Shown here: one piece after another, positions 4,148 to 12,027 of the stretch | Layout: each line of letters opens with the position of its first letter | How positions within the stretch are numbered: the first letter of the stretch is position 1 | Assembly (NCBI RefSeq): GCF_002752355.1 | Contig: NZ_MRAV01000009.1 | Coordinates: 1 to 64,000, forward strand | Origin: Leucobacter sp. OLIS6 | GTDB lineage: Bacteria; Actinomycetota; Actinomycetes; Actinomycetales; Microbacteriaceae | Direction of reading: 5' to 3' | Length of the DNA: 64,000 nt | Made by a program: the position numbers and the translations under genes | Notes under the pieces: generated by a model | What the model saw: the letters and a program-made list of their open reading frames with translations, nothing else | The model's database searches: none | What the model was told of the DNA's origin: nothing

Positions 4148-5770
4148 ATGGAATCATCGATTTCGAGCATCATCGCGACATCGCCGTTCTCGAGCGGGCT
4201 GCCGCTCTCCGAGCTGCTCGCGCAGCTCGGTCCCACGACGCTGCGACCGGTCGCCCAGGCCGATTCCACCGAACGCGAAGCAGCACCGCCCGTGCAAGGC
4301 GTTGCGTTCCTCGATGCCGACGCCGTCGCACAGCAGTCCGCCGGGCAGCTGCTCCTGCTCACCTCGCACGCGATGCTGCCCGACGAACGCATCGAGGAGC
4401 TCTGCACCGCCGCCTCCGCTTCGCGCGCGAGCGGGATCGTGGCGCGCACGATCCCCGCCGATGCGCCGCTCGCCGCCTCGTGCGCACGCCACGCGATCCC
4501 GCTCTTCGAACTCCACCCGCAGGTCGACTGGCGCCAGTTCGATGCGCTCGTGAGCCGCCTGCTCGGCGAGCACGGATCGGGCCTGCAGCTCGGCCCGACC
4601 TCGGGCGACAAGCTCTTCTCGCTCGCCAACTCCATCGCCGGAGTGTTCCGCGGCTCGGTGGCGATCGAGGATCACCGGCGCAACATCCTCGCCTACTCGG
4701 CGATGCCCGACCAGGCGATCGACGATCTGCGGGCCAACGGGATCCTCTACCGCCGGGTGCCCGACAAGTCGATCAACGAGGTGCGCTACCGCCAGATGTT
4801 CGCCGCGCAGGGCGTCGCGCGATTCCCCCGCAGCGATACCGAGGCACCGCGAGCGGCGATCGCGATCCGGGCGGGCAGCATCCCGCTCGGATCCATCTGG
4901 GCGATCGACCCCGATGGCGAGGACCCCTCCCTCCCGCTTTCGCCGGCGAAGCAGGAGGTGCTCGAGCAGGGCGCCCTGCTCGCAGCCGACTACCTCGTCG
5001 ACGCCTGGCGCTTCGACCACGGCGACTCCCGCTCACGCGAGGCCGCGCTGCGGCGAGCGCTGCACGGCGCTCCGCAGGAGAACGATCCGACGGTGCTCGG
5101 CTTCAGGCCGACCCAGCAGGTGATCCTCGCGGCGCTGCTGCCCGGCGGCGATCGTTCCAGCGATGCCGAGCTCGGCGAGATCCGGACCGGGGCCGCACGG
5201 CACCTCTCGGTGTATTTCCCCGGCAGCGTGTGCGTCGCGCTCGACGGCGTCGTGGTGGCGCTCGTACCGAGCGGATCGCCCGAGGAGGTGGGGCGTTCGT
5301 TCGCGCGGTTGCTGCCCGAGCTCCGACGGTTGACGGGAGCCGAGTGCCGGGTCGGCCTCGACGAGCCGCGCCGGTTCCGGCGTTCCCTCGCCGGGCGTCA
5401 CGAGCGCGCACGGTTGGTGGCGGAGTGCGCCCGGGAGCGGGGGCTCGAGGTCGCGACCACGCGCGAGGTGCAGGCGCAGCTCGTGCTGCACGAGTGCGGC
5501 ACGGCGCTGCGCGGTGCCCGGCTCTCGACGGAGGACGCCGACGCGCTGCTCGAACCCGATGCGGCCGACGCGCGCACGACGCTGCTGGCCTGGCTCGAGG
5601 AGCAGGGCAGCGCGCCGCGGGTCGCCGCGCGACTGAACCTGCACGAGCAGACGGTGCGCTATCGGGTGCGGCAGGCCGTCGCCCGGTACGGGCTCGACCT
5701 CGACGACGCCGACCGCATGCTCGCGCTCTGGGTGCAGTTGCGCACTTCGGCGACGGACCGCCGGGGATAG
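4148..5770 (+). CDS. PucR-family transcriptional regulator
   Basis: 540 aa DNA-binding regulator. The N-terminal about 150 residues resemble a purine-catabolism regulator (PucR) domain, the middle a CdaR GGDEF-like region, and the last 60 residues are the PucR helix-turn-helix (ARLNLHEQTVRYRVRQAVARYG at about 495-517). Proteins with this layout sense small metabolites and control catabolic or transport genes nearby. It is divergent from lysA with 86 bp between, so it is the natural candidate regulator of the lysA-ABC operon. The ATG is probably the first transcribed base. The inducer cannot be predicted. Confidence 0.88.
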   Translation: MESSISSIIATSPFSSGLPLSELLAQLGPTTLRPVAQADSTEREAAPPVQGVAFLDADAVAQQSAGQLLLLTSHAMLPDERIEELCTAASASRASGIVARTIPADAPLAASCARHAIPLFELHPQVDWRQFDALVSRLLGEHGSGLQLGPTSGDKLFSLANSIAGVFRGSVAIEDHRRNILAYSAMPDQAIDDLRANGILYRRVPDKSINEVRYRQMFAAQGVARFPRSDTEAPRAAIAIRAGSIPLGSIWAIDPDGEDPSLPLSPAKQEVLEQGALLAADYLVDAWRFDHGDSRSREAALRRALHGAPQENDPTVLGFRPTQQVILAALLPGGDRSSDAELGEIRTGAARHLSVYFPGSVCVALDGVVVALVPSGSPEEVGRSFARLLPELRRLTGAECRVGLDEPRRFRRSLAGRHERARLVAECARERGLEVATTREVQAQLVLHECGTALRGARLSTEDADALLEPDAADARTTLLAWLEEQGSAPRVAARLNLHEQTVRYRVRQAVARYGLDLDDADRMLALWVQLRTSATDRRG

Positions 5771-5779
5771 GCTTCCCCC

Positions 5780-6514
5780 ATGGCCGCATCAGACACGGAA
5801 TCCGCCGACCCGAGCGCGGCGGAGGCACGGACCGAGGCGGGCTCGCCCGCAGCGAGCGCGGCCGCAAAAACGGGCGCGGTGGTCGGCACGACGGCCGGCA
5901 TCGCGACCCTCTTCCTGCTGCTGCGCCTGCTCGCGGTCTCGGAGTGGAACTGGGGCACGGCCGGCGCCGTCGCCGATTCCTTCGATTTCGGCGACGCGCT
6001 GCCCATCGCGTTCGGCACGCTGTTCGCGCGTCCGGAGCTGACTGGCGCACTCATCGCGCTCCTGCTCCCGCTCGCGCTGCTGCACGTGCTGTGGCCCATC
6101 GGCGGCCGCGTCGGGCCCCCGAGCCTCGCCCGGGTGCTCGCGGCGGTAGCGCTCGTCACGATCGCCTATGTGTGGATCCGCACCTTCCACTCCTGGTGGG
6201 TGGGGATCGGCGCACTCGCCCTCGGCGGGATCCTGGTCGCCGCTCGGCTCATCTGGACTCGCGGCGTCGGGCACCGGATCATCGCCGGCATCATGCGGAG
6301 CGTCGGCGGAATCGCAGTGATCGGCGTGCTGCTGCTCGCCGTCCTGGTCGACACCCCGTGGGTGTCGAAGGAGCGGCTCGAGACCGGCGGCGGCCCGCTC
6401 GAGGGGTGGGTGCTCGAGGTGCAGCCGGGGTTCCTCAAGGTGCTCACCGAGCAGCGCGAGGTCGAGATCCTGCCGATCGCCGACGTGACCTCGCGCCGGA
6501 TCATCGAGGAGTAG
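5780..6514 (+). CDS. Membrane protein of unknown function
   Basis: 244 aa. An Ala/Ser/Glu-rich cytoplasmic N-terminus of about 25 residues is followed by five or so hydrophobic segments (about 35-55, 85-105, 115-135, 140-160, 175-195) and a soluble tail of about 45 residues ending RRIIEE. The tail (GWVLEVQPGFLKVLTEQREVEILPIADVTSR) has a short beta-rich look. It starts 9 nt after pucR, with TAGGCT 7 nt before the ATG as a possible -10 of a leaderless mRNA. I do not recognise the family. Confidence 0.8.
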   Translation: MAASDTESADPSAAEARTEAGSPAASAAAKTGAVVGTTAGIATLFLLLRLLAVSEWNWGTAGAVADSFDFGDALPIAFGTLFARPELTGALIALLLPLALLHVLWPIGGRVGPPSLARVLAAVALVTIAYVWIRTFHSWWVGIGALALGGILVAARLIWTRGVGHRIIAGIMRSVGGIAVIGVLLLAVLVDTPWVSKERLETGGGPLEGWVLEVQPGFLKVLTEQREVEILPIADVTSRRIIEE

Positions 6515-9575: not shown

Positions 9576-10124
9576 TCAAACGGTCTGCCCCGGATGCGGA
9601 CCCTCGCCGATCTCCTCGACGAGCTTCGCGCAGAACGCGGGCAGGTCGTCGGGGGTGCGGCTCGACACCAGACCCTGATCGACCACGACCTCCTCGTCCA
9701 CCCAGTTGGCTCCGGCGTTCTGGAGGTCGGTGCGCAGACTCGGATAGCTCGTGAGCGTGCGCCCGTCGACCACGCCCGCCTCGATCAGGATCCAGGCCCC
9801 GTGGCAGATGACGCCGACCGGCTTGTGCTGCTCGAAGAAGGCGCGCGCGAAGTCGCGCGCGGCGGCGTCCATGCGGAGCTGGTCCGCGTTCTGCACTCCA
9901 CCGGGCAGGACCAGCGCGTCGAAGCCGTCGACCGAGGCACCGTTGACACCGAGATCCACCCGCTGCTCATGCCCCTTCGCTCCGGTGATCGACCCGCTCT
10001 TCGGCGACACGAGACGCGCGTCCGCGCCCGCCTCAACGACCGCGTCCCACGGTGCGGTCAGCTCGCTGTCCTCGAAGCCGTCCGTCGCCAGGAATGCCAC
10101 GTTCGTCCCCTGGATATCCGTCAT
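9576..10124 (-). CDS. DJ-1/PfpI-family protein
   Basis: 182 aa. It has the nucleophile elbow GVICHGAW with Cys107 and His108 and an upstream acidic residue Glu18 (GFEDSEL), the arrangement of PfpI-like peptidases, deglycases and general stress proteins (YhbO/YraA group). The ATG at 10124 was chosen over an upstream in-frame ATG because GGAAGGAA sits correctly before it and the family begins just there. Whether it is a protease or a glyoxalase/deglycase cannot be told from sequence. Confidence 0.88.
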   Translation of the reverse strand: MTDIQGTNVAFLATDGFEDSELTAPWDAVVEAGADARLVSPKSGSITGAKGHEQRVDLGVNGASVDGFDALVLPGGVQNADQLRMDAAARDFARAFFEQHKPVGVICHGAWILIEAGVVDGRTLTSYPSLRTDLQNAGANWVDEEVVVDQGLVSSRTPDDLPAFCAKLVEEIGEGPHPGQTV

Positions 10125-10245
10125 CTGTTCGTTCCTTCCGCTCCGTTTCCGATCACCTACCGGTCCAGATTCCCAGCCCGTCACGCGGGCTTCCAGGGGG
10201 TGTCAACCCGATGCCGAGCGTGATACGCGGGTCGAGCGGCCAGAA

Positions 10246-10262
10246 TTCTGCTCAGAGCAGAA
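10246..10262. promoter_or_regulatory. Perfect palindrome upstream of the PopR-like gene
   Basis: TTCTGCTCAGAGCAGAA is a perfect 8+1+8 inverted repeat. Its core CTGCTCAGAGCAG (10248-10260) ends 41 nt before the ATG at 10302. An 11/13-identical core lies 41 nt before the clpP start at 11948, so it is a strong candidate operator for the adjacent regulator. Confidence 0.65.
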
Positions 10263-10301: not shown

Positions 10302-10646
10302 ATGAGCAACGACGCACCTGAGACCCGCGACCGCCCCGCACCGCTGCCGCTCTGGCGCCACATGCTCGGCGAGGAGTTGAGGCGGCTCCGGCACGAGCGC
10401 GGCGAGACCCTGGGCGAGACCGCGAAGCACGCCGGCGTCTCGCCCCAGTACCTCTCCGAGATGGAGCGCGGCGTCAAGGATCCGTCGAGCGAGATGATCG
10501 CGGCGGTGGCCGGCGCCCTCGACGCGACGCTCATCGACCTCGCGCGATCGGTCGCCGAGAACCTGAGCGGCGACGCGAACCTGCGCGCGGCCGAGGCGGC
10601 ACCGGCCGGACCCTCCGTCCGAGCCGCATTCGCGCTCGCGGCCTGA
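10302..10646 (+). CDS. PopR/ClgR-like XRE regulator of clpP genes
   Basis: 114 aa. The helix-turn-helix spans about residues 22-75, with ELRRLRHERGETLGETAKHAG, VSPQYLSEMERGVKDPSSE and MIAAVAGAL, which is the wording of ClgR/PopR regulators of actinobacterial Clp genes. The short tail ends AFALAA, resembling the C-terminus of an SsrA tag. In Streptomyces, PopR activates the adjacent clpP3-clpP4 operon and is itself degraded by Clp in a way that depends on its C-terminal alanines; the same logic is inferred here. The gene is convergent with a clpP pair (73 nt between stops) and carries its own palindromic operator. Confidence 0.85.
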   Translation: MSNDAPETRDRPAPLPLWRHMLGEELRRLRHERGETLGETAKHAGVSPQYLSEMERGVKDPSSEMIAAVAGALDATLIDLARSVAENLSGDANLRAAEAAPAGPSVRAAFALAA

Positions 10647-10719: not shown

Positions 10720-11313
10720 TCACCGCCGCGCGATCACCTCGTCGACGAGTCCGTAGTCGCGCGCCTCGGCCGCCGTGAACACGCGGTCGTGATCCGTGTC
10801 GGTGCGCAGCCGCTCGACCGGCTGTCCGGTGTGCTCGGCGAGCACCGCCTCGAGCTCCGCGCGGATCCGCACCGCCTCGTCGGCCTGCAGGATCAGGTCC
10901 GGGATCGTGCCGCGACGCCCCTGATTCGCGGGCTGGTGCAGCACCACGCGTGCGTGCGGCAGCGCCAGCCGCTTCCCCGGGGCGCCGGATGCGAGCAGCA
11001 CCGCGCCGACGCCGATCGCCTGCCCGACGCAGATCGTGGTGACGTCGGATCGCAGGTACTGCACGGTGTCGGCGATCGCGAGCATGGCGCTGGGATCACC
11101 GCCCTCGCAATTGATCGTGAGCTGAATATCGGTGCCGGGGCTCGACGAGTCGAGATACAGCAGCTGCGCGATGATCGCGTTCGCGACGCCCGAGTCGATC
11201 GGGGTTCCCAGATAGATGATCCGCTCGGTCAGCAGGTGCGAGTAGACGTCCATGATCCGGTCGCCGCGCGGGCTCTCGGAGACCACGCTCGGGATCGTGT
11301 AGCTGCCGCTCAT
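10720..11313 (-). CDS. clpP: ClpP-like subunit lacking the catalytic serine
   Basis: 197 aa Clp peptidase fold. Where active ClpPs have G-Q-A-A-S-M-G-A, this protein has GQAIGVGA: the nucleophile position is Gly101 (codon at 11011-11013). The other two triad residues are retained, His126 (VVLHQP) and Asp172 (TDTDHD). Three adjacent residues differ from consensus, so a single sequencing error does not explain it. The gene overlaps the upstream clpP stop by 4 nt (ATGA), giving equal, coupled synthesis. By analogy to ClpR of plastids and cyanobacteria, it probably forms mixed rings with its active partner and has a structural or regulatory role. Confidence 0.9.
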   Translation of the reverse strand: MSGSYTIPSVVSESPRGDRIMDVYSHLLTERIIYLGTPIDSGVANAIIAQLLYLDSSSPGTDIQLTINCEGGDPSAMLAIADTVQYLRSDVTTICVGQAIGVGAVLLASGAPGKRLALPHARVVLHQPANQGRRGTIPDLILQADEAVRIRAELEAVLAEHTGQPVERLRTDTDHDRVFTAAEARDYGLVDEVIARR

Positions 11314-11948
11314 CGCGCGACCTCCGCCCCGATCGGTGCGCCGAAGCCCAGGCCCGCGGCCCCCGCGCCGCGGGGCATGATCTCGCCGAAGCTCTCGACG
11401 ATGCCGTCGATGAATCCGTAGTCGCGGGCCTCCTCGGCGGAGTACCAGTGGTCGTGCAGCGAGTCTTCGAAGATCCGCTCGACCGGCTGCCCGGTGTCCT
11501 CGCTCGTGAGCCGCAGCAGGGTGTCGCGCGTGTGGCGCAGGTCGCCGGCCTGCAGCTCGACCTCGACGGTGGATCCGCCGATCCCCGCCGATCCCTGGTG
11601 CATGAGGATCCGCGCGTGCGGCAGCGCCCACCGCTTGCCCTTCGTGCCCGAGGTGAGCAGGAACTGGCCCGCGCTGTAGGCGATGCCGAGCGCGAGGGTC
11701 GAGACGTCGTTCGGTACGAGCCGCATGATGTCGCGGATCGCGAGCATGGCCGGAACGGACCCGCCCGGCGAATGGATCCAGAGGGCCATGTCGGCGACGG
11801 GGTCGGCGGCCGACAGCGCCGCGATCTGCGTCGCGAGGAGCATGCCGTTGTCATCGTCGAGGGCGCCGTCGAGCACCAGGATCCGGCGCTCGAACAGTTC
11901 GCGCCGGAACGGCTCGGTGAACACGGGTGGTTTCGGTGATTCGCTCAT
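11310..11948 (-). CDS. clpP: ATP-dependent Clp protease proteolytic subunit (complete triad)
   Basis: 212 aa. Triad residues are Ser92 in GIAYSAGQ, His117 in ILMHQG and Asp162 in FEDSLHD; HSPGGSVPAML at 59-69 is the oxyanion/handle region. It should form a barrel peptidase fed by ClpC or ClpX unfoldases, none of which are in the window. The C-terminal about 20 residues are Gly/Ala-rich and basic at the end. It is first in a two-gene operon with the Ser-less subunit and is likely controlled by the PopR-like protein through the element at 11990-12002. Confidence 0.93.
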   Translation of the reverse strand: MSESPKPPVFTEPFRRELFERRILVLDGALDDDNGMLLATQIAALSAADPVADMALWIHSPGGSVPAMLAIRDIMRLVPNDVSTLALGIAYSAGQFLLTSGTKGKRWALPHARILMHQGSAGIGGSTVEVELQAGDLRHTRDTLLRLTSEDTGQPVERIFEDSLHDHWYSAEEARDYGFIDGIVESFGEIMPRGAGAAGLGFGAPIGAEVAR

Positions 11949-11989
11949 GCCGCCAGCCTGCTCCGGACGGGCCGCCGGCGGGGCGGATC

Positions 11990-12002
11990 CTGCTCACGGC
12001 AG
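11990..12002. promoter_or_regulatory. Candidate PopR-like operator upstream of the clpP pair
   Basis: CTGCTCACGGCAG matches the core of the palindrome before the regulator gene at 11 of 13 bases (both CTGC-N5-GCAG). It ends 41 nt from the clpP ATG at 11948, the same distance as at the regulator. A separate perfect palindrome CGGCAGCGCTGCCG overlaps it at 11997-12010. Confidence 0.55.
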
Positions 12003-12027
12003 CGCTGCCGAGAGCGGCGTCCCCGCG

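Follow-up and report, generated by a model that had tools for sequence, protein, structure and literature searches.

The best-described counterpart of the locus presented here is the ClpP3P4 core of Streptomyces, reported as a backup that is made upon failure of ClpP1P2 (PMC9765437, PMC12607617). S. lividans was described to require either of the two pairs and, since it lives on either, ClpP3P4 works in vivo (PMC9765437). The target of its regulator PopR was given as TCTGCC-N3-GGCGAATCTGCC-N3-GGCAGA, and two C-terminal alanines were considered very likely to be the chief site by which substrates of this kind are recognised for ClpP1/ClpP2-dependent degradation (PMC9775585). Within the Streptomyces ClpP1P2 core it is ClpP2 that reportedly recruits the ATPases, and the nucleophile was found dispensable in ClpP2 but not in ClpP1, for instance in a core of ClpP1 and ClpP2(S131A) that was fully active with ClpC1 on casein (PMC9765437). 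Similarly, in M. tuberculosis ClpX and ClpC1 were described to be supported by the ClpP2 face only, and the conserved N-loop is that of ClpP2; degradation was reportedly not much slowed by inactivating either subunit (PMC4416901), so that the split between a cutting ClpP1 and a docking ClpP2 would not be equally sharp everywhere.

Catalytically silent ClpP paralogues are described as established in the form of ClpR (cyanobacteria, plastids and apicoplasts), which in Synechococcus was reported to share mixed rings with ClpP3. Another described deviation is ClpP-ADEP of Streptomyces hawaiiensis, said to pair with ClpP2 and to disturb ClpP1P2 formation. The literature searched contained no statement of catalytic loss in ClpP4, nor did the passages on the ClpP3P4-PopR system of S. 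lividans; the original Streptomyces papers and supplementary files lie outside that scope, and an earlier remark there is possible. A search on ClpP pseudoproteases in Streptomyces returned nothing on point by title.

The clpP3clpP4 pair and its regulator in Leucobacter

The window (the whole stretch of 64,000 nucleotides of Leucobacter sp. OLIS6 that was analysed) holds two clpP genes that overlap by four bases and a regulator gene that converges on them (Table 1). Their products, of 212 (clpP3) and 197 (clpP4) residues, matched the Pfam CLP_protease family (209.5 and 166.6 bits for the two proteins, cut-off 20.2) but scored below threshold with every NCBIfam ClpP model. The pair and its regulator are flanked by genes of the DJ-1/PfpI family (9576-10184, minus strand) and of an amino acid permease family (from 12028, minus strand).

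Table 1. Positions of the elements of the clpP3clpP4/popR locus within the window
Feature	Position	Strand	Basis
clpP4, subunit of the ClpP2 lineage lacking the nucleophile (Gly101, His126, Asp176)	10720..11313	-	ORF, alignment, Pfam, trees
clpP3, ClpP1-lineage subunit, triad intact (Ser92, His117, Asp166), N-terminus short and degenerate	11310..11948	-	ORF, alignment, trees
ATGA shared by the clpP4 start and the clpP3 stop (ATG 11313-11311, TGA 11312-11310)	11310..11313	-	sequence
GGC codon of Gly101, nucleophile position of clpP4	11011..11013	-	sequence, alignment
CEGGDP strip, clpP4 residues 69-74 (SPGGS in active ClpPs)	11092..11109	-	alignment
N-terminal axial-loop region retained in ClpP4 (Pro8, Gly17, Arg19, Asp22)	11233..11304	-	alignment
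popR-like HTH regulator (ClgR/PopR type), C-terminus LAA, convergent to clpP4	10302..10646	+	ORF, profiles
PopR-box palindrome, exact, TCTGCTCAGAGCAGA, upstream of popR	10247..10261	.	motif scan
Inverted repeat resembling a PopR box, upstream of clpP3, with 2 mismatches to TCTGCY-N3-RGCAGA	11989..12003	.	motif scan
Another such repeat directly adjoining the previous one, with 3 mismatches	12004..12018	.	motif scan

In ClpP4 the nucleophile motif reads GQAIGVGA, and Gly101 aligned to Ser97 of E. coli ClpP; alignments to solved ClpPs were unambiguous at this site. The Ser-His-Asp triad is therefore absent in ClpP4, which retains the histidine and the aspartate, and complete in ClpP3. The initial annotation had described just such a pair, with a serine to glycine change next to a retained His126, a partner with Ser92, His117 and an acid, and a 4-nt overlap of the genes, all of which agreed with the alignment to E. 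coli ClpP and with the ATGA at the junction. It was also right that both proteins keep the aspartate, but its numbers (172 and 162) were four too low: the counterpart of E. coli Asp171 is Asp176 in ClpP4 and Asp166 in ClpP3. ClpP4 is thus, like ClpR, a ClpP paralogue without the full triad.

The regulator is a 114-residue HTH protein located 73 bases from clpP4, with a match to HTH_31 and a score of 59 bits against the NCBIfam ClgR model (cut-off 170). An exact TCTGCY-N3-RGCAGA box precedes its gene, and two degenerate copies stand in tandem before clpP3. Boxes and regulator were conserved across relatives. The best box upstream of clpP3 had 0, 1, 2 or 3 mismatches in 81, 66, 38 and 1 of 186 cases (one of the 187 upstream regions was too short to be counted), for a Markov-shuffle expectation of 0, 0.5, 8.2 and 52.8; a box with at most two mismatches was thus found in 185/186 (8.7 expected). 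Tandem boxes with at most five mismatches in all preceded clpP3 in 168/186 (0.2 expected), and among the 156 with at most four mismatches the spacing was 15 bases in 153. A regulator convergent to clpP4 was present at 175 of 188 loci, in 151 of them within 200 bases; LAA was the C-terminus of 158 and AA that of 167 of these 175 regulators. None was found at the remaining 13 loci, about five of which had less than 400 bases of sequence left. A box with at most one mismatch was observed in 66 of 174 popR upstream regions (0.4 expected), which suggests autoregulation of popR.

Given a second clpP pair, a convergent regulator ending in AA, tandem boxes and a Streptomyces-like gene order, we took the locus as a clpP3clpP4/popR system. 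The order clpP3>clpP4><popR is common to the window and S. fungicidicus, and tandem boxes and a regulator with C-terminal AA are also described for S. lividans; the circuit of the latter is in print, whereas that of the window is read from the sequence. The suggestion that an active and a silent subunit form a dedicated pair under a regulator of their own is hence supported by the triads and the popR-like gene. The idea of a distinctive one-off is not, as the locus matches the PopR-controlled backup system known from Streptomyces, and many Actinomycetes have it. In S. fungicidicus (4739-6130 of the region examined) a stress island is hinted at by the genes next to the operon, which encode a sigma factor of the SigB/SigF/SigG type and an ATP-binding protein.

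Four CLP_protease matches were found in the genome (3.33 Mb, 22 contigs), two of them being the pair of the window. The remaining two form a canonical pair on contig 11, with Ser, His and Asp (SHD) in both proteins and an AAA_2 gene nearby. We found no strong match to a Clp unfoldase (AAA_2) near the pair of the window: the three matches above 100 bits are all on other contigs, and of two weak matches (<30 bits) one is on the contig of the window, outside the window itself.

Catalytic triads of ClpP3 and ClpP4 across relatives

Among the 80 named loci, the best of 514 confirmed relatives and thus tilted toward the clade of the window, the nearest were Leucobacter (95%, 80% and 75% identity). 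ClpP3 was SHD in 80/80, and ClpP4 carried A,H,D in 60, G,H,D in 15, S,H,D in 3, G,H,E in 1 and D,H,D in 1. The comparison of relatives proposed in the initial annotation thus revealed conserved silence, and with the serine also missing in 77 of these best 80 the loss of the nucleophile is not due to chance. In the pairs assigned to Streptomyces (from an 87% match to S. fungicidicus) the triad is broken elsewhere: the serine that is replaced by Gly in the window is retained and the histidine is changed to Gly in 26/26 pairs, one of which also has Glu for Asp, with ClpP3 intact in all 26.

For a broader count, further loci and 60 hand-picked regions were added, the latter nearly all taken from listed matches (a few proved to be canonical ClpPs), and identical sequences were collapsed. 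Removal of low-coverage rows reduced the sets from 417 to 415 and later from 516 to 515, and one weak ORF match at locus L010 was also removed. The resulting 188 ClpP4 sequences form an uneven sample because of the hand-picking. The triad was broken in 153 of the 188, through Ser, His or Asp; the common combinations were AHD (75), SHD (35), SGD (31), GHD (23) and SHN (4), followed by GHE, WHT and EHN (3 each), EHH and SHS (2 each) and single cases of DHD, WHD, FHN, AQD, SDD, SHH and SGE. The unusual letters were located in clearly alignable motifs. An intact SHD was found in ClpP3 in 187/187, in ClpP2 in 60/60 and in ClpP1 in 50/52 (the other two being SHE), with 27 ClpPs outside the P1 and P2 clades, all SHD by subtraction, left out of these class counts. 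The pair counts also lack the ClpP3 of L010, which is SHD but whose row was among those removed; the ClpP4 of that locus was counted.

Serine in a relative would have spoken against silence according to the initial annotation. Within the closest clade this was rare (3/95), and many distant ClpP4 proteins do bear it, being silent through His or Asp or intact. An early ClpP4 clade was intact in 17 of 18 members which, together with the 35/188 intact sequences, means that the pair can exist without silence. ClpP3 had Ala98 alongside a silent ClpP4 in 107/152 cases versus 6/35 alongside an intact one; this may simply follow the clades, and no co-evolution is claimed.

Several individual loci deserve mention. 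In L010 (5383-6591 and 5522-6007; an Acidipropionibacterium MAG) Asp occupies the nucleophile position of ClpP4, and the ClpP3 frame looks short or split. Embleya sp. NBC_00888 (Streptomycetaceae; L173) has a ClpP4 of type AHD, unlike the His to Gly type of the sampled Streptomyces. The two ClpP1-type proteins with Glu for the catalytic Asp (L264, 2196-2867, and L270, 695-1423, both of family f106) were the sole departures among the 112 canonical ClpP1 and ClpP2 compared. On a 465-kb plasmid of Microbacterium sp. NIBRBAC000506063 (L174) a trigger-factor gene is followed by a ClpP pair with SHD in both, which groups with canonical ClpP1 and ClpP2.

Descent of ClpP4 and number of losses

When 515 ClpPs were placed in a tree with E. 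coli ClpP as the root, ClpP4 grouped with ClpP2 and ClpP3 with ClpP1, which gives the accessory pair the look of an ancient duplication of the complete operon. Both subunits thus group with the lineages of the actinobacterial core in which labour is split between ClpP1 and an ATPase-docking ClpP2, but the full triad is present in ClpP2 in 60/60 and in ClpP4 in 35/188. The likeness to ClpR is that of a silent paralogue which, in the case of ClpP4, would work with an active ClpP. The differences are that ClpP4 groups with actinobacterial ClpP2 (in a tree that contains no ClpR sequences), that it usually lacks one triad residue and retains the others, and that ClpR of Synechococcus is described in rings shared with ClpP3.

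The number of losses was estimated on an IQ-TREE of 64 ClpP4 and 18 ClpP2 representatives, calculated with the triad columns removed. Parsimony gave nine changes between active and silent; counted by position, the letters changed 16 times at Ser, 3 times at His and 10 times at Asp. In our reading, the triad was lost six times and Ser was regained three times, where six is an estimate as some inner forks are weak (17/79 open). The losses would be those of the Streptomyces clade, of a clade formed by families f94/f96 (by change at Asp), of L215, of L222, of a clade of nine rows (showing Trp, Phe, Ala or Gly) and of a 26-row clade that includes the window. All three regains (L048, L068 and L069) fall inside the latter clade and were taken as back-changes because these sequences carry strips of the CEGGDP type (CEGGDP, CSGGDP and CEGGDL, respectively). 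A single loss, with one silent ClpP4 clade, was rejected by the AU test: placing the 44 silent rows together lowered the log-likelihood by 350, for a silent group that was defined after the alignment had been seen.

Constraint on the silent subunit and its possible role

Over 12 hand-chosen pairs dN/dS ranged from 0.02 to 0.25 for silent ClpP4 and from 0.07 to 0.28 for the ClpP3 partners, indicating that purifying selection acts on silent ClpP4. The axial-loop motif (Gly13, Arg/Lys15) was found in 182/188 ClpP4 and 55/60 ClpP2 sequences and in none of the 187 ClpP3 and 52 ClpP1 sequences; the Pro4 position held Pro in 187/188 ClpP4 and in 41/187 ClpP3 (with an uncertain alignment of the ClpP3 N-terminus). 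At the positions that we take to form the docking pocket (23, 60, 62, 90, 92, 112 and 114, presumed numbering), Leu23 and Leu114 were constant in ClpP4 and Tyr62 was present in 184/188, the ClpP4 of the window being one of the four others (Thr); under the same presumed numbering positions 60, 90, 92 and 112 are mostly unlike E. coli. More of the pocket is gone in ClpP3, with Arg at the Phe112 position in 83/187.

A further observation concerns the SPGGS strip, which in a 95-member clade that includes the window has become CEGGDP (Cys 96%, Glu 93%, Asp 100%, Pro 95%). SPGGS is retained in the Streptomyces ClpP4 sequences shown, and Ser65 was found in 96% of the rest of the ClpP4 clade. At 24 positions the 95-member clade differs from ClpP2 although each of the two groups is at least 85% uniform there. 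That CEGGDP is so uniform where the site is dead suggests that a new constraint of some kind is at work.

We consider it probable that the locus encodes a PopR-controlled backup Clp core in which ClpP3 cuts and silent ClpP4 docks and gates. PopR would be held low by the housekeeping ClpP1P2 through its C-terminal alanines, as in print for S. lividans; upon failure of ClpP1P2 it would build up, bind the tandem boxes before clpP3 and switch on the second core. Catalysis would come from ClpP3, of the ClpP1 lineage, and ClpP4, of the ClpP2 lineage, would be the silent subunit, most likely in a heptameric ring of its own that serves as axial gate and as docking face for housekeeping unfoldases. With the loop and part of the pocket retained and the nucleophile of ClpP2 dispensable in Streptomyces, ClpP4 looks like a ClpP2 whose dispensable site has been given up. 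What counts against this reading is that 35/188 ClpP4 are intact, that the ClpP4 of the window has Thr for pocket Tyr62 and several other pocket positions of ClpP4 are unlike E. coli, that the M. tuberculosis core tolerates inactivation of either subunit, and that 13 loci gave no convergent regulator. Of the docking or gating by a silent ring proposed in the initial annotation, the retained axial loop and part of the pocket are in favour, but no strong unfoldase match lies near the pair. The mixed rings that it derived from the gene overlap are unsupported; by analogy with the ClpP1P2 cores, to which the pair is related, each subunit would form a ring of its own. Near-equal synthesis, which the overlap implies, and the Synechococcus ClpP3/R precedent would suit heptamers in which ClpP3 and ClpP4 alternate; such an assembly is nevertheless unlikely in our view, given that the two group with ClpP1 and ClpP2, that the M. 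tuberculosis core is described as capped on the ClpP2 side only (PMC4416901), which fits separate rings, and that the axial-loop features segregate by subunit.

Why ClpP4 became silent can be read in two ways. We tentatively propose, short of conviction, that selection repeatedly and convergently silenced the backup docking ring and that the dead site of the largest clade was remodelled into a new, conserved acidic CEGGDP element with a positive role, for instance in handing over substrate to the ClpP3 ring or in locking the rings into a one-way, single-sided protease. It is also possible, though we would not favour it, that constraint was merely relaxed, mutations drifting into a dispensable ClpP2-type site and the silence having no function. 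The dispensability of the ClpP2 nucleophile in the published Streptomyces ClpP1P2 tests (PMC9765437) agrees with this, as do losses at each of the three triad positions, to many different letters; canonical ClpP2, equally dispensable in those tests, is however intact in 60/60, and the largest silent clade has the nearly fixed CEGGDP and the 24 positions that are uniform but unlike ClpP2. That ClpP4 would be an inhibitory subunit, poisoning or retuning ClpP1P2 instead of partnering ClpP3, recalls the reported behaviour of ClpP-ADEP, but we regard it as improbable in view of an intact clpP3 partner in all 187 pairs analysed and the reported survival of S. lividans on clpP3clpP4 without clpP1clpP2 (PMC9765437). 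The lost catalytic residue might finally mark a decaying pseudogene pair in this strain, an explanation to which we give hardly any credence: the frames are open, dN/dS is low, boxes and regulator are conserved and the nearest relatives have the same residue. A one-off mutation was likewise rejected on the shared loss of Ser in relatives and the low dN/dS.

The backup operon itself is known, and what is new is the comparison, which reveals a recurrent silencing of ClpP4 beside an intact ClpP3. The purpose of silent subunits in double-ring proteases has so far been asked mainly for ClpR. Here one operon appears as a natural experiment run several times, in which ClpP3 stayed intact in 187/187 and ClpP4 lost its triad through different residues in different lineages. 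Because some of these natural pairs are silent and others intact, they allow the division of labour between the two subunits of such Clp cores to be put to the test.
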